Below, piece after piece: positions 18,680 to 36,919 of a DNA stretch of 47,064 nucleotides. A model generated the notes under the pieces. The model saw only the letters and a list, made by a program, of their open reading frames with translations. It searched no databases and was not told where the DNA came from. Numbering within the stretch: the stretch's first letter is position 1; every line of letters starts with the position of its first letter. This stretch comes from Candidatus Martarchaeota archaeon (lineage in GTDB: Archaea > Micrarchaeota > Micrarchaeia > Micrarchaeales > Micrarchaeaceae), in assembly GCA_023485545.1 (NCBI GenBank), contig JAMCZI010000030.1, positions 1 through 47,064 on the forward strand, given 5' to 3'. The translations under genes were made by a program, and so were the position numbers.

Positions 18680-20263
18680 ATGGCGGAAAGGAAAGCTGAC
18701 GAGATGTTCAAGGAGTTCAGGGAGCATTCTGTAGCTGATTTCTTCAAGAAGAACAAGCAGATGCTGGGCTATTCCAGCTTGGGCAGGGCCCTTGTCACTG
18801 TGGTGCACGAGTATGTGACAAACTCGCTTGACGCTTGTGAGGAAGCGGGGATACTGCCCGACATTGCCATAACGATATCAAAGGTGAACGAGAGCAGGTA
18901 TTACGTGAAGGTGGCTGACAACGGACCGGGAATACCTAAGAACTACGTAGGCAGGGTCTTCGGGAAGATACTTGCAGGAACGAAATTCCACAGGAACATG
19001 CAGCAGCGAGGCCAGCAAGGCATAGGCGCCGCAGGGTGCACGCTCTTCTCACAGGTGACCACAGGAAGGCCAGTGGCAGTCACAAGCGTCACGGCAAACT
19101 CCGCTTACAAGTGCAGCGTGGGCATAGACACTGTGAACAACAAGCCGATAGTTACAAACGTCGAGGACATTCCTGGAAGCGAGCAGCACGGCACTGTTGT
19201 CGAAGGGGAATTCGCCGAAGTGAAATATGACACTGGGGAGCACAGCGCTTATGAGTACATAAGAAGGACTGCGCTCTCCAATCCGCACGTCAAGGTCACA
19301 TTCACAGACCCCTCTGGGAAGGAGACTGTTTTCCTGAGGGCTGTAGAATCCATACCAGTGAAACCGAAGGTCTCAAAGCTGCACCCGCTCGGGCTGACGG
19401 TGAACGACCTTATCGAGATGGCGCATATCAGCGCCGAGAGGAAGCTCTCCTCATTCATGACCGAGAATTTCGCAAGGTTCAGCCCTGCAAAGGTGAAGGA
19501 GGTCGCGGAAATTGCGAAGGACGTTGATATGGACATGCAGCCTTCCAAGCTCGCATGGGATGATGCCGAGAAGCTGATAGCGGCGTTCAGGGCTGTCAAG
19601 TGGATCGCTCCTGAGTCGGACAACGTCGTGCCGATAGGGAAGGAGAGGATAGAGTACGCAGTGAAAAACATACTGGATCCGGAGTACATGAGCGTCGTGG
19701 AGAGGAAGCCCAAGGTGTTCCGAGGTGGCATACCATTCATAGTGGAAGCGGCAGTGAGCTTTGGGGGCGGATCCGGGCGCAAGGTTTCTGGAGACGAATA
19801 CACAGGGAACATACTGCGTTTCGCAAACAGGGTCCCCCTGCTCTTCGACACGGGCAATTGCGCCATCACTACAGCAGTCAGGGACGTGCAGTGGAAAAGG
19901 TATGGTATAGACATGGACAACCAGCCGGTAAGCGTGCTTGTCAACGTGTCATCAGTTTACATACCCTATTCAGGCGTTGGAAAGGAGGCAATAGCGCAGG
20001 AGGAGGAGATAATAGAGGAGATAAAGCTGGCGGTCATGGACGCAGCGAGGGGCGTCCAAAGATACATAAGCGGCAAGCAGCAGATAAACTACGACAAGTC
20101 GAGGTACAGGACAGTTATGAAGTACACGTCGCAGCTGGCAAAGGACCTGAGTGCACTGACCGGAGTGCCGCAGGAAAGAATACAGGAGGACCTTGAGAGG
20201 ATAGTAGCAAAGCACTACCCCAAGGTTAAGGCCAACGGCTCTGAGGAGGAGCAGGAAGGTTAG
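18680..20263 (+). CDS. top6B: DNA topoisomerase VI subunit B
   Basis: ATPase subunit of the A2B2 type IIB topoisomerase. Seen: an N-terminal GHKL ATPase domain with E-Y-V-T-N-S-L-D-A-C (N-box), V-A-D-N-G-P-G-I-P (G1 box) and Q-R-G-Q-Q-G-I-G-A-A-G (ATP lid/G2), an H2TH-like segment in the middle (M-A-H-I-S-A-E-R-K-L-S-S-F-M), and a transducer domain after about residue 330. The 527-aa length is normal. It follows the KH gene by 4 nt. The catalytic A subunit, often adjacent to B in archaea, is not in this window. Its stop overlaps the convergent stop of the 789-aa membrane protein by 4 nt. Confidence 0.95.
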   Translation: MAERKADEMFKEFREHSVADFFKKNKQMLGYSSLGRALVTVVHEYVTNSLDACEEAGILPDIAITISKVNESRYYVKVADNGPGIPKNYVGRVFGKILAGTKFHRNMQQRGQQGIGAAGCTLFSQVTTGRPVAVTSVTANSAYKCSVGIDTVNNKPIVTNVEDIPGSEQHGTVVEGEFAEVKYDTGEHSAYEYIRRTALSNPHVKVTFTDPSGKETVFLRAVESIPVKPKVSKLHPLGLTVNDLIEMAHISAERKLSSFMTENFARFSPAKVKEVAEIAKDVDMDMQPSKLAWDDAEKLIAAFRAVKWIAPESDNVVPIGKERIEYAVKNILDPEYMSVVERKPKVFRGGIPFIVEAAVSFGGGSGRKVSGDEYTGNILRFANRVPLLFDTGNCAITTAVRDVQWKRYGIDMDNQPVSVLVNVSSVYIPYSGVGKEAIAQEEEIIEEIKLAVMDAARGVQRYISGKQQINYDKSRYRTVMKYTSQLAKDLSALTGVPQERIQEDLERIVAKHYPKVKANGSEEEQEG

Positions 20264-22629
20264 AGAACTATCTCGGAGGGGTTGTCCGCACTTATCGGTA
20301 TGATCATGCCGGAATCTATGTACATGCGCAACTTATCCGCCTCCGGCGTGTAAAGCCTTGAAAGCTTGTCCCTGAACTCTTCCAGCTTTTCTGCATTCAG
20401 GAATGCTATGAATGTCTTTGAGCCAGTGACTGGCTGTATTGAAGTGAACTTGCTTGTTTTGGAGTATATCACAACTCTGCCGCGCTCGCCGTGCATAGTA
20501 ATGACCATGTCGGCGCTGTCGCTTGCGTCAAGGTCGGTGAACAGGTACCCGTGAGTCACGAGGTAAACTCTAAGCTTCTTGAATGTTGCAAGGTACTCTA
20601 TGTCGTGGCCGCTCTTCTCCATCCACTGTTTTGGGGCATACAGGTCGTCTGCGGACTCTATCATCTTTGCATTTGAGAGCTGGTCTATCAGTATGTTAAC
20701 GTTGTTGAACGTCAGGCTTACGGGAAGGCTTCCGTACCTGATTGAAGAGGCAATGGCAGAGCGCACCTCCTCCCTCGAGAGTGGCATGTATCTCCACTTG
20801 TACTTTAGGTTGAGCTTGTCGAAGGATGATATGACATCAGTGGGATTCAGCTTTATCGGAGTCTTCTCTGTTTTCTGGAGCCCGGGTACATCTATGTAGA
20901 ACTCGTCCCTGTCTGGGGCCTTGACCACAGTGACCAGCACAAGCACCATCACTGCGACTATAGCCAGCACCACGTACTTGCTGCTTATCGTTATGCTTAT
21001 CGGCTTGTTGACCACGACATAGTGGAAGTTTGACGAGAGCATTGATATGTTGAAGCCGAGGTTGCCGTAAATCTCTGGAGCGCCCTTCGGCAGCGTGTAG
21101 TAAAGCGTGCCGTTTGTTATAGTCCCGTTCTGAGGATAGAGCGAATTAACCCTTATGGTATATGGTATGCCGTTGAGCGGCACCCCCGCAGAGTAGAGTC
21201 GCAGCTTGTATTCTCCTGTGGAGAAATTGGCCGAAACTACCGATATCGATACTGGGGGTATGTAGAACAGCCCTGAAGCGTATACAGCGTTTGAGAAGCT
21301 CTCAAGCGAGAGTACGTATCCGCCAGGAGGAAGGCTGAAGGTTACGTGCTTGTAGAACGTGAAATTTCCGCTTTGAGAGGAGAACGGCAGGGTTATCGAC
21401 TCGACCTTAGACATGTTGAGCGTGTAGACTTCAAGGTGCGGCTCAAGCGGTATCGGAGCAGATGAATGCGTGAATATGGTGAATTCGCCTTCGGTCGTAT
21501 ACCCTGGAGCCATGGATGTGGGCACTGATACAGTGCCATTTATCGAGTAATCCGGCCTGAAATACTGGTATACGTATATGCTGCCAGGAGATTTTGTGTA
21601 ATTGTAGTTGTTGTAGGCAACAACGCGGCCATACCCGGAATCAAGCCTTGATATCGAGCTCTCGCCCGAATATGGATATGTGTAGTTGTCCATAACCATG
21701 CCAATGCTGCCCGAAGACCGATTTGTCGGTATGCTGGCGTTGGAAAACCCGTATGCAAACTTCGGCATCCAGAAGAGTGATGAGGAGGCGCGCGCTACGT
21801 CGGAAGCCTCGGAGGAGACGTTCTTCCACGAATCAGGATAATTGGAGAATGCAACTATCGAGCCGTTTGAGACGTTTTCGTAGCTTATGGGGCCGTACAT
21901 TGCGCCGTTGTCGAATGAGAATGTTGGGCTGTCGAAATAGTAGCCGCTTTTCGCAGATGTGCTTATTGGGGATGTCAGGAGATATGAGGGCAGGTTGCTG
22001 CTCGGCGTCTCTATCGAGCCGGCTATGAGCGAGTTTGAGAAGTTCTTGCCTACGTATATTATTGAGGTTCCCTTGTTAAGCAGCGCCTGTATCACGCTCA
22101 GGTTTGAGCCAGGTATGTCCTGCAGCAGCTGCGAAGGGATAAGCCCGCTCGGCACTATGAGTATGGAGTTGCCTTGTATCGAGAGCACGGATCCTATGGA
22201 GACGTTGCCGAAGTTTGTCGAGTTTATTAGGCCGTAGCTGGAGAGCGATGCCTCCAGGTCCTGCACGAAAGTGTAGACGTTGCCGCAGTTTATGCACTCA
22301 TTCTGGACCTCAAGGACGTAGAAATTCCTTGGCGGGGGCCTCGAATACAGGCTTGCGTTCAGGTATATGCGCGAGAGGTTAGTCTGCGTATACCCTATGC
22401 CAACGTACGGCGCGATCGAGCTTCCGGACGAATAGAACAGCGCCTGCTGCGATACGACGCTGTAGAGCAATGTTGTTGGAAGAGGGGGTACGGCGTGGCT
22501 GGTTACCGATTTTATCGAGCTAAGGTCGCTCTTCAGCGTTATCGACAGGTACGCTATGCCCAATACCGCGATAATGAAAACTGCGAGCGCGGCGGCGATG
22601 TAAAACTTGTACTTTTTCTTTATCGACAC
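20260..22629 (-). CDS. Large two-TM surface protein of the T4SS-like cluster
   Basis: A 789-aa protein starting with GTG. There is a membrane helix at about residues 9-30 and a second at about 558-576 (Y-V-V-L-A-I-V-A-V-M-V-L-V). Between them lies a large outer domain of about 525 aa rich in Ser, Tyr and N-X-S/T sequons, with a Cys pair in N-E-C-I-N-C-G-N near residue 110. The last 210 residues are cytosolic and hydrophilic. I do not recognise a family. It is the last gene of the minus-strand operon, starting 5 nt after the true end of the frameshifted coiled-coil gene. It could be a surface receptor or the outer part of the transfer machine, passing signals inside. Confidence 0.72.
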   Translation of the reverse strand: MSIKKKYKFYIAAALAVFIIAVLGIAYLSITLKSDLSSIKSVTSHAVPPLPTTLLYSVVSQQALFYSSGSSIAPYVGIGYTQTNLSRIYLNASLYSRPPPRNFYVLEVQNECINCGNVYTFVQDLEASLSSYGLINSTNFGNVSIGSVLSIQGNSILIVPSGLIPSQLLQDIPGSNLSVIQALLNKGTSIIYVGKNFSNSLIAGSIETPSSNLPSYLLTSPISTSAKSGYYFDSPTFSFDNGAMYGPISYENVSNGSIVAFSNYPDSWKNVSSEASDVARASSSLFWMPKFAYGFSNASIPTNRSSGSIGMVMDNYTYPYSGESSISRLDSGYGRVVAYNNYNYTKSPGSIYVYQYFRPDYSINGTVSVPTSMAPGYTTEGEFTIFTHSSAPIPLEPHLEVYTLNMSKVESITLPFSSQSGNFTFYKHVTFSLPPGGYVLSLESFSNAVYASGLFYIPPVSISVVSANFSTGEYKLRLYSAGVPLNGIPYTIRVNSLYPQNGTITNGTLYYTLPKGAPEIYGNLGFNISMLSSNFHYVVVNKPISITISSKYVVLAIVAVMVLVLVTVVKAPDRDEFYIDVPGLQKTEKTPIKLNPTDVISSFDKLNLKYKWRYMPLSREEVRSAIASSIRYGSLPVSLTFNNVNILIDQLSNAKMIESADDLYAPKQWMEKSGHDIEYLATFKKLRVYLVTHGYLFTDLDASDSADMVITMHGERGRVVIYSKTSKFTSIQPVTGSKTFIAFLNAEKLEEFRDKLSRLYTPEADKLRMYIDSGMIIPISADNPSEIVL

Positions 22630-22634
22630 GCTAC

Positions 22635-22795
22635 CTACCCGTTTTCACGCTGCTTCTTGCCGCTGAATATTTTTATGAACATCTTTGTCAGGAAGTTGCT
22701 GTCCTTCCGCCCTATCTTCTGCTTTATGTCGTATACGCGTATGTAACGGAGGCGCTTGTTTATCCTGACGTAGTATTTTCCTGTTGCCGTGCTAT
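22635..22795 (-). other. 3' continuation of the coiled-coil/winged-helix gene in a shifted frame
   Basis: Past the TAG at 22792-22794 the +1 frame encodes about 53 more residues (G-K-Y-Y-V-R-I-N-K-R-L-R-Y-I-R-V...) ending in TAG at 22635-22637, just 5 nt before the next gene. This frame has no ATG, GTG or TTG before its first two thirds are over. Removing one base from the GGGG run (CCCC at 22796-22799) joins it in frame to the upstream gene as E-L-R-D-S-T-A-T-G-K-Y-Y, completing the wing of its winged helix. Confidence 0.65.
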
Positions 22796-23559
22796 CCCCT
22801 CAGCTCTATGTACCCGAGCGAGACCATCTTGTTGAGCATCTGCTCTATTCTCGTGGGGCTCGCCTTGTAGGATTTTGCGAATTCGTTTATGTCTATTGCA
22901 CTGTCATGCGACTCTATCCACTCCTCAAGCATAACCATCAGCGACTCGTCAGAATAGCTCTCGAGCTGTGAAAGCCTCGACTTGAGCTCCTGGTTCTCTG
23001 AGCTGAGCTGCGCAGCCTGCACCGTCAGGTTCCTGTTCGAAGCGGTAAGCTCTATGTTCAGGCGCTTGATTTCGCGCTGCTCGTTCAGCAGGGCGCTGTA
23101 ATTGTTGAAAAGCGTGCTGTAGCTCTGTGAGAGCGACCCGAGCACGTCTTCTATAGACGACTCAATGAGCTGGAAGATGCCGGAGCCTTCGGGCTGGTAC
23201 TGGTCCGATATGAGAGAAAGCACGCTTGCCAGGCTCTTCACGACGTAGAGCTTGCGCATCTTCGGGCTCGAGTCCTTTGCTATAGAATACTGGACGTCTA
23301 TTCCATCGCGCGCAAGCGTTATTATGAAGAAAAGGAATGGGCGCTTCTGTATGTCGCGGCTTTCAACCCGTGCTATTGACAGGCTGGAAGCGGACTCCTT
23401 TATGTAGAATATCTGCAGCGATGAGAGACGCGTGGCTATGCTATCGAACGTCCCTGTAAGCGTGCCGTTAACGTGGAAACCGTCTACGTCCGGTTCTATG
23501 AAGCCGGTAGTTTCTTCAGCCATTTCTAAGTTCACCGATTTGATATCCAATGGGCCCAT
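22792..23559 (-). CDS. Coiled-coil winged-helix protein (apparently frameshifted near the 3' end)
   Basis: 255 aa as read. The N-terminal half (to about 135) is a mixed alpha/beta domain. A long coiled coil covers about 160-215 (L-N-E-Q-R-E-I-K-R-L-N-I-E-L), then comes an HTH with D-I-N-E-F-A-K-S-Y-K-A-S-P-T-R-I-E-Q-M-L-N near the end. Translation stops at Y-I-E-L-R-G, in the middle of what should be the wing. A coding stretch in another frame completes it (see 22635-22795), so a one-base indel, sequencing error or programmed shift is likely. A TATA at 23621-23630 gives it a possible own promoter. Starts ATG 23559 or ATG 23523. It may be a cytosolic regulator or adaptor of the apparatus. Confidence 0.68.
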   Translation of the reverse strand: MGPLDIKSVNLEMAEETTGFIEPDVDGFHVNGTLTGTFDSIATRLSSLQIFYIKESASSLSIARVESRDIQKRPFLFFIITLARDGIDVQYSIAKDSSPKMRKLYVVKSLASVLSLISDQYQPEGSGIFQLIESSIEDVLGSLSQSYSTLFNNYSALLNEQREIKRLNIELTASNRNLTVQAAQLSSENQELKSRLSQLESYSDESLMVMLEEWIESHDSAIDINEFAKSYKASPTRIEQMLNKMVSLGYIELRG

Positions 23560-23620
23560 TGCTTGTCTTTCTCGGCTTAAGTTTGCAGAATTCAGGCCGT
23601 CGCTCTCGTGCCAAGCCCAT

Positions 23621-23630
23621 GTTATTTATC
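23621..23630 (-). promoter_or_regulatory. TATA-like element before the coiled-coil gene
   Basis: GATAAATAAC on the minus strand predicts a start near 23599. It lies just beyond the stop of the zinc-finger gene (23634), so the last two genes of the cluster may have a separate promoter. Confidence 0.35.
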
Positions 23631-23633
23631 CCT

Positions 23634-24092
23634 TCATTCATGTTTATATCCCTTTGTTTTTGTAATTCCACCGGCGGGGCGCATGCCGCTTGTATGCATG
23701 CTTGCTGCAGAGCCGCCAGCTGCAGAATCACGCTTCTGCTTCCCTGCAGCGTGCACTGCTTCAAGAGCAGGCATATAGCTGACCAGCGACAGGAGGTACA
23801 GGAAGACCACTATGCCAAACCCGTAAAACAGCGAATACAGGTTGAAGCTGGACAGAACGAAGAGAGCTATGGCAAAGACTGCCCCGAGGCCCACGTATAG
23901 GGAGCGCTTCCTCTCGAACGACTTCCTCTGCTTGTAGTACTTCGGGAAGTCCTCCCTGCACACCACCAGCCGGAAGCCCTTCTCGTTCTTTGTGACGTTG
24001 CGCTTGAACCACCTTATTGAGGAGAGGATGTAGTCGTTCCTGACCTCAAGGCCTGCAATCCTTTTTCCGCAAATTATGCAAGCGTCCTCCAT
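23634..24092 (-). CDS. Zinc-finger two-TM membrane protein
   Basis: From the ATG at 24092 the product is 152 aa, starting M-E-D-A-C-I-I-C-G-K-R-I. Together with a later V-V-C-R-E-D this resembles a small zinc ribbon (C-x-x-C ... C). Two adjacent membrane helices follow at about 65-105 (Y-V-G-L-G-A-V-F-A-I-A-L and F-G-I-V-V-F-L-Y-L-L). The tail is short, Gly/Ala/Ser-rich and basic. The preceding gene's stop at 24094-24096 lies directly before this ATG (TGAGATG), so translation is probably coupled; the frame also opens further upstream at 24113. The family is not recognised. The position suggests a membrane component of the ATPase complex. Confidence 0.62.
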   Translation of the reverse strand: MEDACIICGKRIAGLEVRNDYILSSIRWFKRNVTKNEKGFRLVVCREDFPKYYKQRKSFERKRSLYVGLGAVFAIALFVLSSFNLYSLFYGFGIVVFLYLLSLVSYMPALEAVHAAGKQKRDSAAGGSAASMHTSGMRPAGGITKTKGYKHE

Positions 24093-24093
24093 C

Positions 24094-24408
24094 TCAAGCC
24101 CCGCCGAAATCAAGTATGGCGTCGTACACTCTGCCTATCTCGCTGGCCACCCTCTGCTCGTCTATCGCGTTGAGGGCCTGCTCTATCGCGAGATCGCTCA
24201 GCCCTATCCTGCGCAGCACGTTGGAGACTGCGTCGCGCTCCAGGCCGGACTTCTCGAGCATCGATATGAACGAAAGAAGGTTTATGTGCCTGTGGCTCTT
24301 CTCCATGCTCGATATTATAGATGTAATGCTCTTCTCGCCTACGCCAAAGGCTATCAGTATCCTGCGCAGCTCCTGCCTGCTCAGCGTGAACGTGTCTTGG
24401 TTAGGCAT
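24094..24408 (-). CDS. Helical-domain protein paralogous to the ATPase C-terminus
   Basis: A 104-aa all-helical protein. Its first 75 residues (R-Q-E-L-R-R-I-L-I-A-F-G-V, S-I-I-S-S-M-E-K-S, L-S-F-I-S-M-L-E-K-S-G) align without gaps to the last 75 residues of the adjacent ATPase (R-E-E-L-R-N-K-L-I-E-Y-N-V, S-I-F-S-S-M-D-E-S, L-D-F-I-N-V-L-F-Q-N-G). The two therefore share a helical module and probably arose by partial duplication. The gene overlaps the ATPase stop by 8 nt. It may bind the same partner as the ATPase tail, or compete with it. No outside family is recognised. Confidence 0.68.
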   Translation of the reverse strand: MPNQDTFTLSRQELRRILIAFGVGEKSITSIISSMEKSHRHINLLSFISMLEKSGLERDAVSNVLRRIGLSDLAIEQALNAIDEQRVASEIGRVYDAILDFGGA

Positions 24409-25918
24409 TCCTCACACCAGCCTTCGCTATTATCCTTGTTATTATCGAGTCCTCTATGCTCATGCTCTTCAGGAGCAGGACTATGTCCGACGCTTCTACG
24501 CCGTTCTGGAAGAGCACGTTTATGAAGTCAAGCATCTTGGGGTTTCTCCCGCTCTCGTCCATGCTAGAGAATATGCTGTCTATCCCTTCTGCAGAGACGT
24601 TGTACTCTATGAGCTTGTTCCTGAGCTCCTCCCTCTCGAACTGGTAATCACGCTGTATCACGTTTGACGAGAGCTCTGACTCGCTTATCGCGCCCTCCAT
24701 GTTGACCGTGTATACGTAAAGCGGCGTCTCGCCCTGTATCTTCTCGAGTATGAACGTCTGCGGGAACCTGAGCGCGGTCTGGAACGCCATCTCGACTGCT
24801 GCCTGACCCACACCGAAGTTGCTTATCTCCTCGCGTATGAAATTGGAGAAGTTTATCGTTCCCTGTATGTAGTTGAGGAACTTCTCGAACTTTATCCGCA
24901 GTATGAATGTGGTGCCGACGTTTGAGAATATTGCCTCGTTTATGTCAGTAGGGTTCTGCGACGCGACTATGAGGCCGAACTGGTATTTCCTGCCCTCCCT
25001 TACAATGGTTATTGCGTCACTTCTGTCATCACTGGCTATCTTCCATGCTTCATCAAGCACCACTAGGGTCTTGAGGCCCTTGCTCTCGCTCCAGCCCTCG
25101 AAGCGCATCTTCTCCTTCAATGTCTGGAGTATGAACAGCGATGCGAGGCCCCTGAACTTCTCGTCGGGAAGCCCTGATAGGTCTATGTCCACCAGCCCTG
25201 ATTCGGAGAGCTTGCCAAGGTCTATGGTGCTCTTCCGCGCGAAGAAGTCCTCGCCTTCCCTGGCAAACTGCCTCAGCCTGTATATTGTGTTCTCCAGCTC
25301 TGCTGGATACTCATACGTGCCATCCTGCAGCTTTTCTTCAAGAAGCGCTATCACATCCTTTAGCGTAGGGGATTCCTTTCCTTTCTCAGGCGGCTCAGAC
25401 ACTACGAACCCTAGGTTGGTGTACGCCTGCTCTATCGCCTCGCTCGTAAGTCGCCTCTGCTCAGCGAACTGCGATATGTCTGTCAGTATCTCGAAAGAGG
25501 TCATTATCTGCTTGACCCTGTCAAGCGGCTTCATTCCAGAGAGATCCATTATGTTGAGGTAGTCGCCCTTGCCGAGAGCTATCACTTTCCCGCCGCTCTG
25601 CTTTACCCAAGCCTTGTACTCTCCAGCCCAGTCTATTATAACCGCGTTGGAATTCCATACATAGCTTGCGCGTATGAGGAATGTCTTGACGAAGTAGCTC
25701 TTTCCTGAACCGGTTATGCCAACTATTGCTATGTGCGGGTTGGTGAGGTTTGTGAAAGACCACGAGAACGGCACCTGGAACACCTTTGTGGTGCCTATGT
25801 ATATCGACTTCAGCACGTCGCCGACCAGTATGCTCGCCGGAGGCTCCGGCGGCCTTGAGAGGAATGACCTCTTCGCTATGTCGTTGCTCATCAGGTTCTG
25901 AAGCTTCAGTATGCTCAT
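24401..25918 (-). CDS. VirB4/HerA-like type IV secretion ATPase
   Basis: A 505-aa motor ATPase. Seen: Walker A G-I-T-G-S-G-K-S (about 76-83) after a strand N-P-H-I-A-I-V, I-I-D-W-A-G-E-Y downstream, Walker B T-L-V-V-L-D-E-A-W-K (about 289-298) with the catalytic E, the sensor-like V-A-S-Q-N-P-T-D-I segment, and an arginine-containing C-terminal region. The usual VirB4 N-terminal domain is almost absent; only about 60 residues precede the P-loop. Two upstream membrane proteins may supply it. The last 75 residues form a helical module repeated in the next gene. CedB and VirB4 power DNA or pilin movement in related machines. No VirD4 or relaxase is found nearby. Confidence 0.85.
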   Translation of the reverse strand: MSILKLQNLMSNDIAKRSFLSRPPEPPASILVGDVLKSIYIGTTKVFQVPFSWSFTNLTNPHIAIVGITGSGKSYFVKTFLIRASYVWNSNAVIIDWAGEYKAWVKQSGGKVIALGKGDYLNIMDLSGMKPLDRVKQIMTSFEILTDISQFAEQRRLTSEAIEQAYTNLGFVVSEPPEKGKESPTLKDVIALLEEKLQDGTYEYPAELENTIYRLRQFAREGEDFFARKSTIDLGKLSESGLVDIDLSGLPDEKFRGLASLFILQTLKEKMRFEGWSESKGLKTLVVLDEAWKIASDDRSDAITIVREGRKYQFGLIVASQNPTDINEAIFSNVGTTFILRIKFEKFLNYIQGTINFSNFIREEISNFGVGQAAVEMAFQTALRFPQTFILEKIQGETPLYVYTVNMEGAISESELSSNVIQRDYQFEREELRNKLIEYNVSAEGIDSIFSSMDESGRNPKMLDFINVLFQNGVEASDIVLLLKSMSIEDSIITRIIAKAGVRNA

Positions 25919-25927
25919 TCTATCAAC

Positions 25928-27595: not shown

Positions 27596-27657
27596 TGCGA
27601 TCAACCATGCGCGCAGATTACCTTATCCTGAAGCCTCAACCTCATTTTGTCTTGAAA

Positions 27658-28859: not shown

Positions 28860-30352
28860 TATACGAGCCCGTTCAGCAGCGTCATGAAGCTTATCCTTAC
28901 GCCTATGGCGCTTGACATGTCTATCACGAATACATCAAGAATCACTATGTTTATAAAAGGTATGAATGTAAGCCCTGCGACAAGGTAGCCCAGCTCAAGG
29001 AAGAACGGAGCGGTGTAAGGGAGGGCACCAACGCCGAATATCACAGGGATTGCGCTTGCGCCGAAAGTTGCAAACTGTGTGGTGAAAATAGCGTCCATTC
29101 CTGCCAGCGTAAGCGTTGACACCACAGGGCCGGATGCGCCCGATGAGCTTAACAGGAACAGGTGTATGAGCTGCACGTCCATGAAGCCGTACGTTAGCGA
29201 AGTCAGTATTGGATAAATCAGCCCTATTCCAAGGCCTAGCGCTATCATTGCACCACCGAAGCGGCGCGAGAAGCCGAATATCCATGCCACTATCCCTATG
29301 GACAGCAAGAATGGCAGGAAGAAAAGCGAACCAGAAAGCAGTATTAGCTGCACCTGGTTTATCAGCAGCATAGTCACTATCAAGCTTGACGCAACTGCCA
29401 GCAAGTCCTCGATGTCTTTCGGGAATATTGAATCAAGGGAGGTGCTGATGCTGACACCTGAAACCAATGGGACAGAAAGCTTCGCCGTTGCGCCTGGCGA
29501 GAGCGCACCCACGTATGACACGTAATACAGTTCATCGTAGAGCGCCTGCGACGCAAAATTGAACGTTGATATGTCACATACGCTGATTCCGAATATGCTG
29601 TTCACAACGTTTGAGTTGCAGGTTGCGGGAAGCAGCCCTGCGGCGTTAAAGTTGGAGAGCGGGTTGAGGAACATCAGGTACGAGAACGCTGCGACGATGA
29701 GTATCAGGAGTATTGCGAACAGGGCTTCGTATATCTGCATCTTTGCCCAGTTCTTCGCAGCCTGGCTGGCTATTACGCCGCTGAGCTGGTACACTATCGC
29801 GGCTATGGCGATGACGAGCAGTGCAGCGGCAGCAGCGAGGGGCAGCCAGGACAGTATGCTGTCCTTGAAGCCCGCCGCAGAGGTAAGGGGAGGTATTGTC
29901 GACGTGCTTGTCGAGCTCGTGGTTGACGTTGTCGTTGAAGTCGAAGTGGAGGAGGTAGACGTTGTGGTTGAGGTTGTCGTGCTGGTGCTTGAAGTAGAGG
30001 TTGATGACGTCGAGGTTGATGTGGTAGAAGTTGTGGTTGACGTTGTTGTAGAAGTGGTTGTTGACGTTGTGGTTGACGTTGTGGTTGATGTGCTTGTGCT
30101 GTAGCAATTGTACAGATCACCTGTGCCAAAGTCGCACCCGAACTCGTTTGTTGTATAATCAGGGCAGGATGATGGGCAGGGATTTCCTCCAAGCCCGAAG
30201 ACCGAGCTGCACAGGCTCTCCGGGCACGAAGAGGAGAATGACAGCGATTGGCTTGCTGCATTGGAATGGTAGGAGGCGCCTGACAGGATTATGGGCAACG
30301 CTACCGCGATCGCGAGCGCGAACATCAGTGCAGTCTTTGTTGCATTCATCAT
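28859..30352 (-). CDS. VirB6/CedA-like membrane protein with Ser/Thr stalk (paralog 2)
   Basis: A 497-aa protein. After a signal peptide (about 1-33) comes a Cys-rich outer segment (seven Cys at about 43-83), a 68-residue Ser/Thr-only stalk (85-152) and about six helices. Cluster signatures: M-Q-I-Y-E-A-L-F-A-I and I-F-G-F-S-R-R-F-G-G-A-M-I-A-L-G, then I-Y-P. It ends L-L-N-G-L-V. The stalk would lift the Cys-rich head from the membrane and is a likely O-glycosylation target. This is the only paralog with such a stalk, so it may be the outward-facing or adhesive component. The start overlaps the preceding stop by 4 nt. Confidence 0.7.
   Translation of the reverse strand: MMNATKTALMFALAIAVALPIILSGASYHSNAASQSLSFSSSCPESLCSSVFGLGGNPCPSSCPDYTTNEFGCDFGTGDLYNCYSTSTSTTTSTTTSTTTSTTTSTTTSTTSTSTSSTSTSSTSTTTSTTTSTSSTSTSTTTSTTSSTSTSTIPPLTSAAGFKDSILSWLPLAAAAALLVIAIAAIVYQLSGVIASQAAKNWAKMQIYEALFAILLILIVAAFSYLMFLNPLSNFNAAGLLPATCNSNVVNSIFGISVCDISTFNFASQALYDELYYVSYVGALSPGATAKLSVPLVSGVSISTSLDSIFPKDIEDLLAVASSLIVTMLLINQVQLILLSGSLFFLPFLLSIGIVAWIFGFSRRFGGAMIALGLGIGLIYPILTSLTYGFMDVQLIHLFLLSSSGASGPVVSTLTLAGMDAIFTTQFATFGASAIPVIFGVGALPYTAPFFLELGYLVAGLTFIPFINIVILDVFVIDMSSAIGVRISFMTLLNGLV
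29897..30100. repeat. Imperfect 12-bp repeat tract encoding the Ser/Thr stalk
   Basis: About 204 bp of variants of GTTGTGGTTGAC, plus shorter triplet variants, read on the minus strand as Thr and Ser codons only. The units are multiples of three, so gain or loss keeps the frame and would change stalk length. Confidence 0.75.
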
Positions 30353-31473
30353 ATCAGCTTGTTAAGCACCTTGCCTCTTGACAGGCTCGGCGCACCCAGC
30401 ATGTCTGCGAGCGTCTCCATCATGTCGAACGATATTATGAAAGTGAAGCCTATCGCTATCAGGGTGTAGCCCATTGGCACGAGCACTCCTGAGATGAACG
30501 CGAAAAGCGCATCCAGCGATAGGAGGTTGCCAAGAGATGCAAATATTCCTGTGGGAGCGGATACGCTGAAAGAGCTAAACGTGGATGACAGGCTGCTCAC
30601 CGTGCTCGGCGGCAGCTGAGGCGGCACTATAGATACGTTTATTGAGAGCAGGAAGTGCAGGAGGAGCGGGAATATCAGGTAGAATGCGAAGAAAAGCGCA
30701 AGCATCGCGCCTCCCGCTGCCCTGGTCCATGGAAAACTCCTGAGCACTATCCCTACATACAGGAATATCGGAAAGAGCGAGAAGAATATCGCAAGAAGGG
30801 CTATTGTCGCGATGAAAAGCCCGGCTATCCCGCCTGCAATCTCGACAACCTCATCCAGCACCGACCGGTATATTGCAAATCCTGAGAATGGCTTGAAAGC
30901 GACGCCGAAGCCGTTTGGCTGTAGCTGCACGTTCACATTCTTTGCCGCGTCGACTAGGTTTCCAAGTATGGAATATGCTATTATCTGCTGCGGCATCTCT
31001 GTGACTCCGTAATACGCAAGGTAGGAGCAGTCGGAGGAGAATATCTGTGCGTTTGCTGATGGAGCAGTAGGCGTGTTCAGCCCGGGTATGCCTGCTATGC
31101 TTGTGCTCCCGTACGTGCTGTTGAACACCGAGAAGGTGCCGACAAATACCGCTATTATAAGCACAGTGACTATTATCTCCCCAAATTCGGTCTTTGCGAA
31201 ATTTGTAAGCCTGTTTATCTTGAATGAATAGCCAAGGGAGTAGACTATGCCCAGAACTGTCGCGACAGTGAGCAGCAGTATCATCGATATCTCTATCAAG
31301 TACGATAGCGACTGCGGATGGTTGAGGACCGAATTGGATGGTGATATTATCGTCGAACAGAATGCTGCGTCGGGGTTAGGCACATTGGACGTGGCGGCGT
31401 GCGATTCGGGGACCACGAGCGCCATAAGCAGTGCTAGCATGACGAACGAAACCGCAATTTTTCTCCTGTTCAT
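30349..31473 (-). CDS. VirB6/CedA-like polytopic membrane protein (paralog 3)
   Basis: A 374-aa protein with a signal peptide (M-N-R-R-K-I-A-V-S-F ... S-H-A-A, about 1-26), a pair of outer Cys and about seven membrane helices. Signatures: T-E-F-G-E-I-I-V-T-V before a helix and I-V-L-R-S-F-P-W-T-R-A-A-G-G-A-M-L-A, then I-F-P. The C-terminal tail (M-L-G-A-P-S-L-S-R-G-K-V-L-N-K-L-I) follows the family pattern. It starts 3 nt after the preceding stop and overlaps the next start by 4 nt. It is inferred to be a channel component. Confidence 0.68.
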   Translation of the reverse strand: MNRRKIAVSFVMLALLMALVVPESHAATSNVPNPDAAFCSTIISPSNSVLNHPQSLSYLIEISMILLLTVATVLGIVYSLGYSFKINRLTNFAKTEFGEIIVTVLIIAVFVGTFSVFNSTYGSTSIAGIPGLNTPTAPSANAQIFSSDCSYLAYYGVTEMPQQIIAYSILGNLVDAAKNVNVQLQPNGFGVAFKPFSGFAIYRSVLDEVVEIAGGIAGLFIATIALLAIFFSLFPIFLYVGIVLRSFPWTRAAGGAMLALFFAFYLIFPLLLHFLLSINVSIVPPQLPPSTVSSLSSTFSSFSVSAPTGIFASLGNLLSLDALFAFISGVLVPMGYTLIAIGFTFIISFDMMETLADMLGAPSLSRGKVLNKLI

Positions 31474-31476
31474 TTA

Positions 31477-32907
31477 TTACACCAGCTTTGACAGCCCTGC
31501 CATCGAAGTGTCGCCACCCATAAGGCCGGATATCCCCATTATGGCGGAGAGCGTTATTATCAGGTTCAATATAGGGAGGAAGTATGATGATACGCCTATT
31601 ATCGCCGATGCGTTGAGTATCGGGAACACCAATGATACCGCATCTCCAGGGGAGCACGAGTCCGGGAAGCTGAGCACGGGTATCGAGCTGAACGATGGCG
31701 CTCCGGATATAAGCGTCTGGATAAGGGAGACCACACCTCCGGAAAACCCTATGAATGGTATCTCAAGGTACGCTATGTCAACAGCTTCCGCTCCTCCGAA
31801 GCCTCCGCTTGGCCAGCAGCTGTACTGCTCGGCTATGTATTTTATCTTTGGCTCGTTGAAGAAATTCACAGCGTAAGTGCCGCCATTCGGCCCTGGAAGG
31901 GCGGTCAGCGCACTCGTGTATATAGAGTTGAAGCCGTATGTCGATGTTATGCCCTGGCTTGATTGGGATATGAGCGCGTTGTTTATTCCAGCGCCCATGG
32001 AGAGGTACTCTATCGTGTATATTGCAGGGAATATGAGCACCGCCCCAATGCCTATGGCTATCAGCAGGCCGCCTATCTTGCGCGTGAACGGAGTAGCGCG
32101 AAGCACTATGCCGCCGAATATCAGGTATGGCCACGCAAGAAGGAAGGCGGTGAGCAGAAGCATCTGCAGCGTGAACGACTCGAACGCGAACGACAGTATG
32201 TCGCCAATGCTCCTCATTGACCCTAGTATCATGGCATAGCCGGCATACGGCGTATAGGAGATTCCGGTGCTGATTATCGGCCTGAGAGGAACAACAGGGA
32301 CCACGCACGGGCCCAGAAGGTTTGGCACCTGGGTGCAGAACTTGAATGTAGGCGTCGCTTTTGCGAAGAACCCTATGTAGGCATCGACCTCGAAGAACTG
32401 GTCGAGGTTGGTCACCGTCTGGTTTGTCATGTTTGCCAGTATCAGGCCGCTCACTGCAAGAGGATAGTCTGATATCTGTGTCACGTCTGTTGTAGTGGGC
32501 GCGCCGTCTATTATGTTACATATTCCGGGGGTGCTGCCGGGAGTTGTGCCTGCATATAGCAGCGACGGGCTTACGCCTATGAGGTTCAGGTTTGTCGTGC
32601 TGGATAGCGATGAGCACAAGCCGCTCATTGCGTTGTAGCTCATGAGGCTTGTCCCAGAGAGCGCGGTCTCGAAAAATTTGCCGAATGTGGTCACCGCCCA
32701 TATCACTATAAGCGCTATCAGTATAGTCCCTGCTATCTGGTAGAACTCGTTTATCGCCGAGGACTTGACTGTAGAATTGTTCAGGACTGAGCCTATCATG
32801 TACCATACTGCTATTATCGCCGAGTCAAGCAGTATCGCGGCTATCGCCAGGGGTATTATGCCGGAACCCAGCCCGAACGTCAGCATCAAAGAAGGATCGA
32901 AAAGCAT
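31477..32907 (-). CDS. VirB6/CedA-like polytopic membrane protein (paralog 4)
   Basis: A 476-aa protein with a hydrophobic N-terminus but no clear signal cleavage site, about seven helices and two large outer loops rich in Thr/Pro with several Cys. Signatures: I-N-E-F-Y-Q-I-A-G-T-I before a helix, and I-V-L-R-A-T-P-F-T-R-K-I-G-G-L-L-I-A-I-G followed by I-F-P. The tail G-L-M-G-G-D-T-S-M-A-G-L-S-K-L-V fits the family. It is 10 nt after the preceding gene. Loops differ strongly from the paralogs while the core motifs are kept, suggesting a shared membrane core with specialised outer parts. Confidence 0.68.
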   Translation of the reverse strand: MLFDPSLMLTFGLGSGIIPLAIAAILLDSAIIAVWYMIGSVLNNSTVKSSAINEFYQIAGTILIALIVIWAVTTFGKFFETALSGTSLMSYNAMSGLCSSLSSTTNLNLIGVSPSLLYAGTTPGSTPGICNIIDGAPTTTDVTQISDYPLAVSGLILANMTNQTVTNLDQFFEVDAYIGFFAKATPTFKFCTQVPNLLGPCVVPVVPLRPIISTGISYTPYAGYAMILGSMRSIGDILSFAFESFTLQMLLLTAFLLAWPYLIFGGIVLRATPFTRKIGGLLIAIGIGAVLIFPAIYTIEYLSMGAGINNALISQSSQGITSTYGFNSIYTSALTALPGPNGGTYAVNFFNEPKIKYIAEQYSCWPSGGFGGAEAVDIAYLEIPFIGFSGGVVSLIQTLISGAPSFSSIPVLSFPDSCSPGDAVSLVFPILNASAIIGVSSYFLPILNLIITLSAIMGISGLMGGDTSMAGLSKLV

Positions 32908-32917
32908 GAAAGCACCA

Positions 32918-34087
32918 CTATATATTGCCCCAGAAGGAGGCAGCCCCCTCTATGCCTGCATCAAGCGAGGACGCAAGGCTCTGCGCGAAGCCGAGCGTCA
33001 CTGCTACGTCAAGGCCAAACAGGAAAATCCCCACGAATATGAACTGCGCCATTTCATCTATTGTAGTCAGGATCTGTGATGTGACCGCAAACGGGTCGAA
33101 GAGCGGCAGCACCCCGGTAGATGCATAATTGCCAAGCAGTGAGTTTAGCGACGGAGTCGTGATGCCGAGGAAGCTTCCCGAGACACTTGATGAGAGCGAG
33201 CTGAAGAACGTGGATGGAAGCGAATCTAGGGTAAACGATGTGTGCAGATACTGGAAGTAGGGGTTCTGCACAGAGAATATCCAGTTCACTATGTATGAGT
33301 TGTACGATATCATCAGCGGGTATATCAGGTAAACAGCTATGGCTATGGCGAGCACAGCGTTGGAGGCGCTGCGCAGGCCGCCTGAACCTGAAGCCGAATA
33401 TGCTATCGAGCGCATTATGAGCGCAACGGGCAGCACTACGGTAAATGCAGTGTATTCAAATATGGGTATGGACAGGTACTGCACGAAAAGCGACCCTATC
33501 ACAAGCGTTATTATAGGGCCGAACACAGCCAGGTAGAGGTCTGAAAGTATTCCGAAGTTAGCGCCGAGGTCCGCGCCGAAGCTGAATCCGACAGAGAAGA
33601 TTTCGACCCCCTTGTTTGCAGTAGACTTCGAGACAATTTTCGCCGTATGGCTGAGGAATCCTGGCCCTTCGTAATTGATCAGCGCCGGATACACCCTCGA
33701 GTCTATGCCGTAGTCTATCGAGGTCAGATAAATGTTGGTGAGCAGCCTCAGCCCTGTGTTGAGCGTGAGGTTACCTATGTAGTAGTCGGAGTAGGCGAAG
33801 GGGCTCTCGGTTGTATGGGTCACGTGCTGGCTTATAGCCGTAGATGCGGTGCATGCGGTCGAAGCCGCGCCTATCAGCACTATGATTATTATGACGCTTA
33901 TGAAGAGCTGCGTGAGCTCGACGCGCATGACTGATGTTATCTTCCCCTTCATCGAAGACGGAAGGAACCTCGAGAGCATGTAGACAAGCGTCACTACGAA
34001 TATACCTGCGAGTATTACGGCGAAGTTTATGCCTAGCCAGCTGTTGACGTACGAAGCGCCGCCGTAAAGTGCACAAGTCTGCAACAT
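32918..34087 (-). CDS. VirB6/CedA-like polytopic membrane protein (paralog 5)
   Basis: A 389-aa protein, N-terminal helix at about 18-40, about seven helices in all. Signature one is R-V-E-L-T-Q-L-F-I-S-V before a helix. Signature two is the most diverged of the set (I-M-R-S-I-A-Y-S-A-S-G-S-G-G, then A-V-L-A-I-A-I-A and I-Y-P). The tail L-A-S-S-L-D-A-G-I-E-G-A-A-S-F-W-G-N-I lacks the usual LGG. There are two adjacent Cys near residue 80 (T-A-C-T-A-S). It starts 8 nt after the preceding gene. Divergence at the conserved loop may mean a different job within the complex. Confidence 0.66.
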   Translation of the reverse strand: MLQTCALYGGASYVNSWLGINFAVILAGIFVVTLVYMLSRFLPSSMKGKITSVMRVELTQLFISVIIIIVLIGAASTACTASTAISQHVTHTTESPFAYSDYYIGNLTLNTGLRLLTNIYLTSIDYGIDSRVYPALINYEGPGFLSHTAKIVSKSTANKGVEIFSVGFSFGADLGANFGILSDLYLAVFGPIITLVIGSLFVQYLSIPIFEYTAFTVVLPVALIMRSIAYSASGSGGLRSASNAVLAIAIAVYLIYPLMISYNSYIVNWIFSVQNPYFQYLHTSFTLDSLPSTFFSSLSSSVSGSFLGITTPSLNSLLGNYASTGVLPLFDPFAVTSQILTTIDEMAQFIFVGIFLFGLDVAVTLGFAQSLASSLDAGIEGAASFWGNI

Positions 34088-34095
34088 TTATACCA

Positions 34096-35655
34096 CTATG
34101 CTATGCTGAATTTGCCGAAGCTGAGGTTCAGCTCACCTCCCAGTGTCCTCGCTATGCTCTGCGTTATCACTACGACTATTACCAGGTCGAATATGAACAG
34201 GACGAACTGGAGCAGCACGTCTATGAATGCCTTTGAGGTTATGATGTTCATCGCAGGATATATTGAGCCGAAGCTGTCGAACCCTGCAGTAAAGCCGGTA
34301 GCCATGTCCGAGCTGAAAATGCTTGATATGTCGGCCCCGAACGATGCAACGCTGCAGAGAAGACCGCTGCAGCTCTGCGAAACGGATGTGGATAATGTGG
34401 AGCCGATCATGCTGCTTATCGGCAGGTTGAACAGCACAAGCACCGACGGGTATATTATTGCGGTTGCTATGCCAACTGCGATCATGTTGCCGCCTATTCC
34501 TCTCATGAATGGGAACGCGCGCAGCACTATGCCTATGGGTATGAATATCCCTATGCCTATTATCGCCCCGGTATATAGGAACTCAGATTGGAACTGGAGT
34601 ATCACAACCACAGGCACAAGCACAACAGCTATGAACGCTTTGAGGAACGAGTAGGATGTGGGGTCAAAGCTCTCCAGCACGTTTGTGTTGTATATGCTTC
34701 CGGTGAAGCCGAACTGGAGCGAAGCTGGTATGGCAGGGTAGGGAGGCAGGGGAATCGGGAACCATACCGCGAGGTTGAGGCTCTTCAGGAACTGTATGCC
34801 GTCAGCCAGGCCCAGCGCGGTGTCGTATGCGTTCTCCGAAACCTGGACCTGCGCCTGCGTGAATGTGGCGGCAGCCGCATAGAGGGACTGGAGGTTGCTT
34901 GCTAGCCTGTTTCCGCCTCCTGGAGTCCCTATCTGCAGGTTTGGCGCGGATGCCCCGGCTACGAAATTGACGGCTATGCCGCTGAGTATGATCAGCGTAG
35001 AGAATATCACGATTAGAAGCATTATTGTCTTTGCCGCCTCCCACAGCTCACCCTTGTACCATTTCTTAAGGCCGTCAATCTGCACGACCTCGCCGAGCAT
35101 GTACGCCAGCGCTATCATTGCGAACGTTACAAGCAACCCTATTGCAGAGAGGGGTATTGAAGCCTCGAGGCAGCCGCCGAGCGATATGTAAGTGCCCGTG
35201 ACAACGCAGTACGGCTCGCTGATAGCAGGAGCGACATCCACTGAAAGGCTGGAGGACTTGAGCACCGTGCCTGAGTTTATAGCGTTTACTGTCATCGTCT
35301 GGATCCCTGCAGGAAGCGGAGCTGCCGCGCCGTCGCTGTAGTAGCATGCAGTCTGCCCGCCAAAATTTCCGGAGAGGTCGCAGCTTATGTAGGATAGGCC
35401 GCTAAGCTGCTCGACGCCATTAACGTAGAGCGTCAGCGTGGTGCCGGAAGGCATGCTAACCGGCGTCGCTTGAAACGTGTCGTTGTAGCCGAATGGGACA
35501 GGGTTCTCCTGCAGTGTCAGGTATATGTTCTGCGGCGGCGGTGGCGCAGCTGCAAATGAATAGTTGGAAATAGCAGCTATCAGGAGCACAGCGACAAAAA
35601 GGGCGAGAGCGTTCCGTGCAGGCGCTGTAAGGCTTTTGGCATATTGCTCAGCCAT
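34096..35655 (-). CDS. VirB6/CedA-like membrane protein with N-terminal outer domain (paralog 6)
   Basis: A 519-aa protein, first gene of the operon. A signal peptide (about 15-36) is followed by an Ig-like outer domain of about 120 aa (L-T-L-Y-V-N-G-V-E-Q-L-S-G, two Cys, then V-N-A-I-N-S-G) and about seven helices. Signatures: G-E-L-W-E-A-A-K-T-I before a helix, and I-V-L-R-A-F-P-F-M-R-G-I-G-G-N-M-I-A-V-G followed by I-Y-P. The tail L-G-G-E-L-N-L-S-F-G-K-F-S-I-A is the fullest version. A TATA at 35677-35686 lies 26 nt before the ATG, so it is probably leaderless. Confidence 0.7.
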   Translation of the reverse strand: MAEQYAKSLTAPARNALALFVAVLLIAAISNYSFAAAPPPPQNIYLTLQENPVPFGYNDTFQATPVSMPSGTTLTLYVNGVEQLSGLSYISCDLSGNFGGQTACYYSDGAAAPLPAGIQTMTVNAINSGTVLKSSSLSVDVAPAISEPYCVVTGTYISLGGCLEASIPLSAIGLLVTFAMIALAYMLGEVVQIDGLKKWYKGELWEAAKTIMLLIVIFSTLIILSGIAVNFVAGASAPNLQIGTPGGGNRLASNLQSLYAAAATFTQAQVQVSENAYDTALGLADGIQFLKSLNLAVWFPIPLPPYPAIPASLQFGFTGSIYNTNVLESFDPTSYSFLKAFIAVVLVPVVVILQFQSEFLYTGAIIGIGIFIPIGIVLRAFPFMRGIGGNMIAVGIATAIIYPSVLVLFNLPISSMIGSTLSTSVSQSCSGLLCSVASFGADISSIFSSDMATGFTAGFDSFGSIYPAMNIITSKAFIDVLLQFVLFIFDLVIVVVITQSIARTLGGELNLSFGKFSIA

Positions 35656-35676
35656 ATTAGGATTCCTCTCAAAAAC

Positions 35677-35686
35677 TATTTATACA
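35677..35686 (-). promoter_or_regulatory. TATA box of the six-paralog operon
   Basis: TGTATAAATA on the minus strand, centred near 35681, is 26 nt from the ATG at 35655: a leaderless start for the long operon 35655 to 27687. Confidence 0.55.
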
Positions 35687-35704
35687 TGTGAGCGGACGGC
35701 CGCC

Positions 35705-36424
35705 TTACCTCCTCATCATCGGGAATTTCTTCAGGTATGCCTCGCTCTGGAACACTATCAGGAATGGCATCACAAGCAATGAGTTAATTATGATTGATAG
35801 GTATTCTGAGAACTGCGGCACGGCTGCTATGAAGAGGAGGTCTATCAGAGTAATAGAGACGGCCGCAATGGCGAGCCAGACAAGAAAATAGGAAAAGCCA
35901 GATGCGAAAAACTTCGCGCTGCGTTTCATCGCCTTTGGTATGCGGCTATCCTCCATCACTATGGAAGCAGGAGCGTAGAACACGAACGGCGTTAGGGCAA
36001 GCCCTACGACTGCTGTTATCAGCCCCACGGGCCGTATGCCGTAGGTAAGTATCTCTGAAGCGAATATTGCAAGGGTGAAAAGGCCCAGCACCGCGAATAT
36101 CCTGGCGGTGTACTTCTCTATGCCCTTAAGCACCTCTGCGCTCACACGCACATGCATCCTGCTGTGCTTCACTATTACGTTTATCGAGACTATGGCGAAG
36201 CTTAGGAATAGCAGGGAGAATATAGAAGCGATTATTATCACTGATGCGCTAAGCGGCGTGATGTTGAAGTAAAAGAGGCTCGAAGTCCTTATCAGTATCG
36301 CTCCCGCATCGTTGAAAGTCGGGAACGCAGCGAGGACCGGTATGGCAAAAGCTATCAGGAAGGAGAGCGAGAACAGCAGTATAAGTCTCGCGTTCTTCCT
36401 GTACGTCTCAAGCGAATAATGCAT
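35705..36424 (-). CDS. Six-TM membrane protein (YciC/DUF4013-like)
   Basis: From the ATG at 36424 the product is 239 aa; a TTG at 36436 in the same frame is possible. There are about six membrane helices with short loops and no signal peptide. The segment I-V-M-E-D-S-R-I-P-K-A-M-K-R-S-A-K-F-F resembles the conserved helix-loop of YciC/DUF4013-type proteins (E-x-x-x-x-x-A-h-x-x-S). A TATA at 36474-36483 gives a leader of about 28 nt. It sits between the pilin and the six paralogs, in the same orientation but with its own promoter, so membership in the apparatus is uncertain. Confidence 0.62.
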   Translation of the reverse strand: MHYSLETYRKNARLILLFSLSFLIAFAIPVLAAFPTFNDAGAILIRTSSLFYFNITPLSASVIIIASIFSLLFLSFAIVSINVIVKHSRMHVRVSAEVLKGIEKYTARIFAVLGLFTLAIFASEILTYGIRPVGLITAVVGLALTPFVFYAPASIVMEDSRIPKAMKRSAKFFASGFSYFLVWLAIAAVSITLIDLLFIAAVPQFSEYLSIIINSLLVMPFLIVFQSEAYLKKFPMMRR

Positions 36425-36473
36425 TACTCCAGGCAATTCAACACCGATGCGCTGTTAGTAATGAAAAAAGAAG

Positions 36474-36483
36474 CTATTTATAG
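36474..36483 (-). promoter_or_regulatory. TATA box of the six-TM gene
   Basis: CTATAAATAG on the minus strand predicts a start near 36452. Confidence 0.45.
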
Positions 36484-36538
36484 GTTATAAATGCGGCTGG
36501 CAGCCGCATTGCGCCTGAAAGTTATTGGCATGCTGCAA

Positions 36539-36919
36539 TCAGGTGCTGCTGCATGCCGACGCTATCGCAGTGTTGCCGGAGATCACCTGAAGCAGGTAAG
36601 GCGCTATTATCACGATTATGACGCCTATTATGCCGCCCACTATGAAGCCCATTCCGTAGCCCTGAAGGCTTCCCTTGAGGCTTGATGGTGCGACGTGCGC
36701 TCCAGCATATATTGCTCCGCCCAGTATCATGAGCGTCAGGCCGAGTATGAATATTATTGTTGTGACGCTTGAATAGACTCCGCATATTGCGTTGAGCGCG
36801 TTGGCGGTAGTGGTAGTCGCAGAGCTCACTGATAGGAGATATGACCCAAAGATAAGCACTGAAATGAGCAGCCTCAGATACCCCATCTTTCCGTTAAGCA
36901 GTGTGTTAATGTTTTTCAT
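36539..36919 (-). CDS. VirB2/CedA1-like conjugative-type pilin
   Basis: A 126-aa protein. The N-terminal helix (L-L-I-S-V-L-I-F-G-S-Y-L-L-S-V-S-S-A) is a signal peptide. After cleavage the protein has two hydrophobic helices (about 53-75 and 90-113) joined by a short loop with H-V-A-P-S-S-L-K-G-S-L-Q-G-Y. This matches VirB2/TrbC pilins and the archaeal CedA1/TedC pilins: small, two helices, a basic loop facing the pilus lumen. Two Cys (C46 and C123) flank the helices and could form a disulfide. It is monocistronic, as expected for a highly expressed pilin. The assignment rests on architecture and neighbourhood. Confidence 0.68.
   Translation of the reverse strand: MKNINTLLNGKMGYLRLLISVLIFGSYLLSVSSATTTTANALNAICGVYSSVTTIIFILGLTLMILGGAIYAGAHVAPSSLKGSLQGYGMGFIVGGIIGVIIVIIAPYLLQVISGNTAIASACSST

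Follow-up and report, generated by a model that had tools for sequence, protein, structure and literature searches.

A gene cluster on the minus strand of a micrarchaeal chromosome, at 20260-36919 of the window (the 47,064-nucleotide stretch of DNA analyzed here), may well encode a type IV secretion-type translocator, chromosomal and passed on by vertical descent, that would move nucleic acid or nucleoprotein at contact with kin or host cells, and this is the reading towards which we lean. In wider terms, we infer a domesticated type IV secretion-type translocator for nucleic acid or other macromolecules.

The cluster and its surroundings

The window is chromosomal DNA from a Micrarchaeota genome of 762 kb (G000; 32 contigs, 78% complete). 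Within the named collection it is most closely related to Candidatus Micrarchaeota MAGs and to Ca. Micrarchaeum A_DKE and ARM-1, both of them cultured. Gene calls were made by simple ORF picking with HMM labels, and the genomes compared were mostly drafts. Every gene named in the initial annotation, which had described a minus-strand run, has an open frame in this interval, and the genes are tightly packed: intergenic gaps range from -20 to +162 bp, most of those in the run from the polytopic genes to the ATPase being small spacings or overlaps of -8 to +10 bp. Read from 36919 to 20260, the genes are as follows.

36539..36919, minus strand: PIL, VirB2/CedA1-type pilin, 126 aa (Pfam family matches, PDB match)
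35705..36436, minus strand: MEM, six-TM membrane protein, 243 aa (conserved position)
34096..35655, minus strand: polytopic paralog, array position 1, 519 aa (BLAST, position clustering, motif)
32918..34087, minus strand: polytopic paralog, array position 2, 389 aa (position clustering, motif)
31477..32907, minus strand: polytopic paralog, array position 3, 476 aa (BLAST, position clustering, motif)
30349..31473, minus strand: polytopic paralog, array position 4, 374 aa (AlphaFold model, Foldseek)
28859..30352, minus strand: polytopic paralog, array position 5, 497 aa, with a Ser/Thr-rich outer stretch (position clustering, motif)
27687..28859, minus strand: polytopic paralog, array position 6, 390 aa (BLAST, position clustering, motif)
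26762..27604, minus strand: TMa, N-terminal 2-TM hairpin and soluble domain, 280 aa (paralogy with TMb)
25928..26761, minus strand: TMb, 2-TM hairpin and a fold like the VirB4 N-terminal domain, 277 aa (AlphaFold, Foldseek)
24401..25918, minus strand: ATPase, VirB4/CedB-type without N-terminal domain, 505 aa (Pfam, NCBIfam, motifs)
24094..24408, minus strand: HEL, helical paralog of the ATPase C-terminal domain, 104 aa (BLAST)
23634..24113, minus strand: ZN, Cys-rich N-terminus and 2 TM, 159 aa (sequence features, synteny)
22792..23559, minus strand: CCH, coiled coil and winged-helix-like, 255 aa (weak Pfam matches; kept phylum-wide)
20260..22629, minus strand: SURF, surface protein, 789 aa (sequence features, phyletic profile)

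Flanking genes on the opposite strand encode topoisomerase VI B and a carbamoyltransferase, and housekeeping genes (topoisomerase VI B, tRNA synthetases) border the cluster at both ends. Within the cluster we saw no DNA-processing gene and no effector-like genes, and NurA is not among the genes of the window. Elsewhere in the window, inspection by eye picked out a protein at 9064-9543 (minus strand) whose signal sequence, KGRKGQSSLELLITLSFGLIIL, resembles those of archaeal type IV pilins (class III), and a multi-TM protein at 13245-14792 (plus strand) with an archaeosortase/exosortase-like arrangement of Cys, Arg and His followed by an outer domain.

Pilin, polytopic array and ATPase

PIL has three hydrophobic segments, its signal among them. 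Pfam T4SS_pilin is matched by 16 of 21 PIL relatives (best 1.8e-6) and TrbC/VirB2 by 12 of the 21 (best 9.7e-8); taken alone, the window protein matches TrbC/VirB2 no more than weakly (E 0.057), and its top match among 177,635 PDB sequences is TrwL, the VirB2 of R388 (E 0.0067). These profile matches place PIL in the VirB2/T4SS pilin family and bear out the VirB2/CedA1-shaped pilin of the initial annotation. Tandem pilin copies occur at some loci, and in families f8, f9 and f14 the pilin genes directly adjoin the TMa/TMb-ATPase core. MEM, which had no entry of its own in the initial annotation and sits between the pilin and the polytopic array, is part of the conserved cluster both in the window-type gene order and in family f11; it has a weak, below-cut-off match to NCBIfam BPSS1780 (E 7.5e-4).

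The six consecutive polytopic proteins are true paralogs, as had been claimed, with BLAST matches among them down to about 5e-6 and a motif common to all six, GxxLRxFxxTRxxGGxxIA...P; the GxxLRxFxxTRxxGGxxIA portion is kept at all six array positions and in the copy at the compact locus described below. Exactly six polytopic genes were counted in 42 complete arrays, four further arrays being ambiguous (L035 has an ambiguous count). Micrarchaeales loci spanning MEM to TMa hold exactly six genes between the two in 27 of 30 cases and five in the other three, of which two have an unlabelled or antisense call at the sixth place. Six genes in the same order also make up all 12 arrays in ARM-1 and eight genomes from other families, where they are located apart from the ATPase core, and there are six-gene arrays at L036, L037 and L188 (families f11 and f8). 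The draft genomes G021 and G099 have no array beside the core, and none was found elsewhere in either. For 96 of 96 array proteins, the best match in any other array lay at the same position (chance, 1/6), and a FastTree tree of 114 polytopic proteins groups them by position: positions 2 and 5 unite Micrarchaeales with the other families, and positions 1, 3, 4 and 6 form position clades within Micrarchaeales and within the other families separately. Together, the same-position best matches and the tree therefore point to six subunit lineages that are distinct and old. Several genomes contain two arrays, and the best-match pattern fits an origin of these by duplication of the whole array.

The N-terminus of the polytopic proteins aligns with the pilin profile (hhalign 86.6%, E 4.5e-6), a relation reported for CedA/CedA1 and VirB6/VirB2 (PMC9905601). 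The family has no Pfam match, and at the sequence level neither VirB6 nor CedA was matched significantly; with an AlphaFold model of the position-4 protein (pLDDT 80), Foldseek placed VirB6/TrwI at rank 3, below significance (prob 0.63, E 0.17). Homology to VirB6/CedA is only suggestive, though as a polytopic set these proteins are of a type that would suit a CedA homolog. Matches to ABC transporters in the PDB profile search (E about 0.005) were set aside as hydrophobicity matches to generic TM helices. A hetero-oligomeric ring is the probable arrangement of the six paralogs, and a hexamer from six genes is to be read as hypothetical because VirB6 of bacteria is pentameric (PMC12857230) and as many as five VirB6 paralogs are retained in Rickettsiales (PMC2653234). 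With the VirB6 pentamer in mind we considered one divergent plus five canonical subunits; the motif is present at all six positions, which speaks neither for nor against such a 5+1 arrangement. In other families, the arrays include polytopic subunits with huge outer domains and lie beside very large secreted lipoprotein-like proteins; those directly downstream of six-gene arrays at L158 and L163 (1366-1640 aa, lipobox-like signals) have no Pfam match and are possible contact proteins.

The ATPase has a canonical Walker A motif, a VVLDEAWK Walker B motif and the motif REGRKYQFG; it matches the Pfam DUF87/HerA central domain (1e-19). Its family is highly conserved, at 37-76% identity. When 23 members of its family were scanned, all matched the CedB, VirB4 CD1110 and CedD models, with best E-values of 3.6e-30, 3.5e-26 and 3e-24, ahead of HerA at 5.8e-17. 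The matches are confined to the C-terminal halves of the CedB, CedD and VirB4 models (beginning at position 210 of 527 in CedD and 252 of 590 in CedB), and the nearest plasmid proteins are mostly annotated as TraC, the F-type VirB4. On these profile comparisons, the ATPase is closest to CedB, VirB4 and CedD rather than to HerA and comprises the C-terminal motor half only. The initial annotation, which had called it a VirB4/HerA ATPase, was right as to the VirB4 class; it had also named pilin and ATPase profiles matching unrelated families as grounds for abandoning its reading, and the searches, when run, did not refute it in this way.

TMa and TMb are paralogous (hhalign 100%, E 5e-63), each with a 2-TM hairpin at its N-terminus. 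A VirB4-like fold was proposed for TMb from its sequence pattern ahead of the Foldseek search. The AlphaFold model (pLDDT 83) consists of two TM helices, a beta-beta-alpha-beta unit, a long helical hairpin and a beta-alpha-beta unit, and the four best of its matches among 350,542 chains are VirB4/TrwK of R388 (prob 0.99-1.00); since E is 0.013-0.09 and TM-scores are 0.36-0.40, the likeness is remote and at the level of the fold. The link to VirB4 came from fold comparison, the profile search of TMb against PDB having returned coiled-coil noise alone. Because the ATPase has the C-terminal motor half alone and TMb folds like VirB4, VirB4 appears to be split into two chains here, its N-terminal half supplied in trans by a separate 2-TM protein, and a VirB4-class ATPase with its N-terminal domain is thus found in split form only. 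Splitting of VirB4 would be a recurrent theme, because in Sulfolobales CedB is reported to account for one part of the N-terminal domain of VirB4 and CedD for another (PMC11868833); the micrarchaeal form would be one of separate chains with a 2-TM hairpin that may resemble VirB3.

Among the accessory proteins, HEL matches the C-terminal domain of the ATPase (BLAST 2e-10), and CCH, which is conserved phylum-wide, has weak Pfam matches to ZapB (1.2e-4) and FeoC/EAP30. SURF consists of an N-terminal signal/TM, an outer domain, a second TM near residues 553-571 and an inner domain of ~200 aa; its search against PDB gave nothing above chance, and an OST48-like glutamine-amidotransferase fold was thought of from its sequence. 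Pfam matches of the zinc, helical and 2-TM proteins (fatty acid desaturase, END3, SPAM and others) fell far under the cut-offs and were discarded.

Distribution in the Micrarchaeota

Eighty contigs of Micrarchaeota, each fetched independently, show the gene order of the window, and the core is found again in families throughout the class, where TMb-ATPase-(HEL)-ZN-CCH-SURF is syntenic; the order in 80 contigs and this recurrence exclude chance. We drew up a phyletic profile of 116 genomes, evenly drawn from the phylum, among which relatives are not independent. The ATPase and SURF are each present in 106 of these genomes, and TMb, PIL and polytopic proteins each in 107. All five are absent from the same nine genomes (G037, G059, G062, G069, G070, G077, G097, G108 and G111; families f10, f13, f15 and part of f17), which belong to the carriers' class, and the one exception to the pattern, the draft G072, lacks the ATPase and SURF only. 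This co-occurrence covers about 19 families. The genes are accordingly conserved together across the phylum and not scattered in relatives, the other outcome that the initial annotation had said would count against it. Because the array lies apart from the ATPase core in most other families, we assign the two to one machine on the strength of their co-occurrence and of their adjacency in the window order and in f11. The carriers include the cultured Ca. Micrarchaeum harzensis A_DKE and Microcaldus ARM-1, the latter with both core and six-gene array. Pfam Relaxase (PF03432) is absent from all 116 genomes and VirD4-type PF02534 has five marginal matches in the 116, none in the window's genome, so the lack of relaxase and VirD4 first noted for the cluster extends to the phylum; VirB5 and VirB7-11 were not seen.

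A compact locus consisting of PIL, a single polytopic gene, TMb and a second ATPase occurs in families f7, f11, f17 and f18 and, on contig 27, in G000 itself; in the f17 members G073 and G075 its polytopic gene is their sole one. Of the loci described here it is closest in form to Ced, with a pilin, one channel protein and a motor. At two such loci (L151, on contig 27 of G000, and L152), the genes downstream of PIL-POLY-TMb-ATPase encode a short protein resembling CCH, a 2-TM protein resembling SURF and a second, HerA-like ATPase of 751-785 aa, the last of these a possible motor for coupling or loading. The best CedB-model match in the genome (1.2e-20) belongs to an unrelated locus on contig 6 of G000 (L175:6583-8664, plus strand), a 693-aa HerA/VirD4-like ATPase whose C-terminal stretch resembles a PD-(D/E)XK nuclease by eye. 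Giant ORFs of at least 3271 and 4596 aa at L181 (G003 contig 6) and L182 (G044 contig 15), loci other than the cluster, each contain one cytoplasm-side VirB4/HerA-class ATPase domain after a TM helix, with a second SURF paralog nearby. Their architecture would be that of the SPEARE-type giants of nanohaloarchaea (PMC10266531), apparently unreported in Micrarchaeota. Like the present cluster, those giants come from DPANN archaea and link cell-contact proteins to a VirB4-class ATPase, but there the ATPase is fused to a giant adhesin.

Proposed machine, its cargo and its relatives

In the translocator we propose, the ATPase would form a hexamer beneath the membrane, docked through TMa and TMb, which would stand in for VirB3 and the VirB4 N-terminal domain. 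A hetero-oligomeric ring of the six polytopic proteins (one copy of each being the simplest reading) would serve as channel and pilus platform; PIL would polymerize into a filament on it, and SURF and the large outer domains would touch the partner cell. DNA is favored as cargo because of the kinship with CedB and because VirD4 is lacking, as in Ced. The main rival reading keeps the machine and changes the cargo to protein, nucleotides or metabolites exchanged with the host, as in effector delivery or a feeding conduit; it is prompted by the near-universal presence of the machine in a phylum whose cultured members depend on hosts, and we regard it as possible, though rather unlikely. T4SS genes are essential to epibiotic growth in the analogous Patescibacteria (PMC12102498), the arrays with huge outer domains and their very large secreted neighbors would suit such traffic, and the envelope of ARM-1 shows a 21-nm barrel where host nanotubes dock (PMC11329633). 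However, the cluster shows no effector-like genes, the motor is nearest to DNA-import ATPases, and the authors of the ARM-1 study ascribe the tubes to the host. A related and more tentative idea, which we rather doubt, is that the six ordered paralogs form an obligate hetero-hexameric (or 5+1) ring derived from a one-gene homo-oligomer and constitute the micrarchaeal side of a cytoplasm-to-cytoplasm host contact; that this ring is the barrel seen by cryo-ET in ARM-1 is speculation.

The remaining alternatives fare worse. If the ATPase only powered assembly of an adhesive surface filament and nothing were translocated, the tandem pilin copies, SURF and the absence of substrate-processing genes would be accounted for, but six channel-type subunits and a VirB4/CedB motor exceed the needs of an adhesive pilus, which makes this reading improbable. 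An integrated conjugative element would explain the VirB2- and VirB4-family parts; it is largely refuted, and we give it very little credence, by the lack of Pfam Relaxase and, essentially, of VirD4, by the housekeeping neighbors on either side and by a vertical gradient of ATPase identity, which falls from 65-76% within the family to 37-61% within the class. Scarcely any weight attaches to a HerA-type DNA repair motor that happens to adjoin unrelated membrane genes: the DUF87/HerA central domain match is in its favor, but the CedB, VirB4 and CedD models outscore HerA, Walker B is of the DEAW type as opposed to EEAH in solved HerA, the window contains no NurA, and the strict co-occurrence of the ATPase with the pilin and polytopic genes refutes it.

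The nearest known relatives of the proposed translocator are instructive as to both its parts and its peculiarities. The crenarchaeal Ced and Ted systems (PMC9905601, PMC11868833) are likewise chromosomal and without relaxase, pair a VirB2-like pilin and a polytopic protein having a pilin-like N-terminus with a VirB4/HerA-class ATPase, and have the VirB4 N-terminal region taken by split or paralogous proteins. They differ in that the micrarchaeal N-terminal domain (TMa/TMb) and motor are separate chains, in having one or two polytopic proteins instead of six ordered paralogs, and in lacking HEL, ZN, CCH and SURF, which are extras of this DPANN phylum. The window ATPase scores 74.8 bits against the CedD equivalog (cut-off 600) and 67.5 bits against that of CedB (cut-off 700); because these cut-offs are widely missed, the system is a relative of Ced/Ted and T4SS and not a Ced member. 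Thus, of the Ced-like type IV secretion apparatus originally suggested, the relationship is supported but membership of the Ced family proper is not. The Ced system is induced by DNA damage together with Ups pili and has a DNA import phenotype.

The rvh T4SS of Rickettsiales (PMC2653234) is also ancestral and vertically kept in host-associated cells, with strongly diverged tandem channel-type paralogs and large extracytoplasmic domains; it has five VirB6 paralogs, not six, in a near-complete Gram-negative VirB/VirD4 system with a recognizable TrbL/VirB6 domain. With the conjugative T4SS of R388 and F type the cluster shares homologs of the VirB2 pilin (TrwL) and of VirB4 (TrwK, TraC), whereas it is without VirD4, a Pfam-Relaxase relaxase and VirB5/7-11, and its link to VirB6 is not significant. 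The T4SS of Patescibacteria (PMC12102498) is similarly chromosomal and near-universal in an ultrasmall epibiotic lineage, mostly without relaxase, but has an intact monoderm-class VirB4, and a six-gene array is not reported there. We found no earlier description of the system in Micrarchaeota in the open-access literature, to which the search extended, and the A_DKE paper (PMC8975820) does not mention pili, secretion or VirB.

We know of few named molecular parts by which DPANN archaea get host DNA, nucleotides or other material. A phylum-wide list of T4SS-type parts, present in cultured strains, is a concrete candidate for this acquisition, and T4SS-derived transfer would reach beyond the Crenarchaeota. 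The six-paralog array and the split VirB4, set beside the compact locus, offer a natural experiment on the passage from a homo- to a hetero-oligomeric channel, and comparing the lifestyle of the nine component-free lineages with that of the carriers could show what the machine is for. It may let tiny, probably host-dependent archaea swap DNA or other molecules with neighboring cells.
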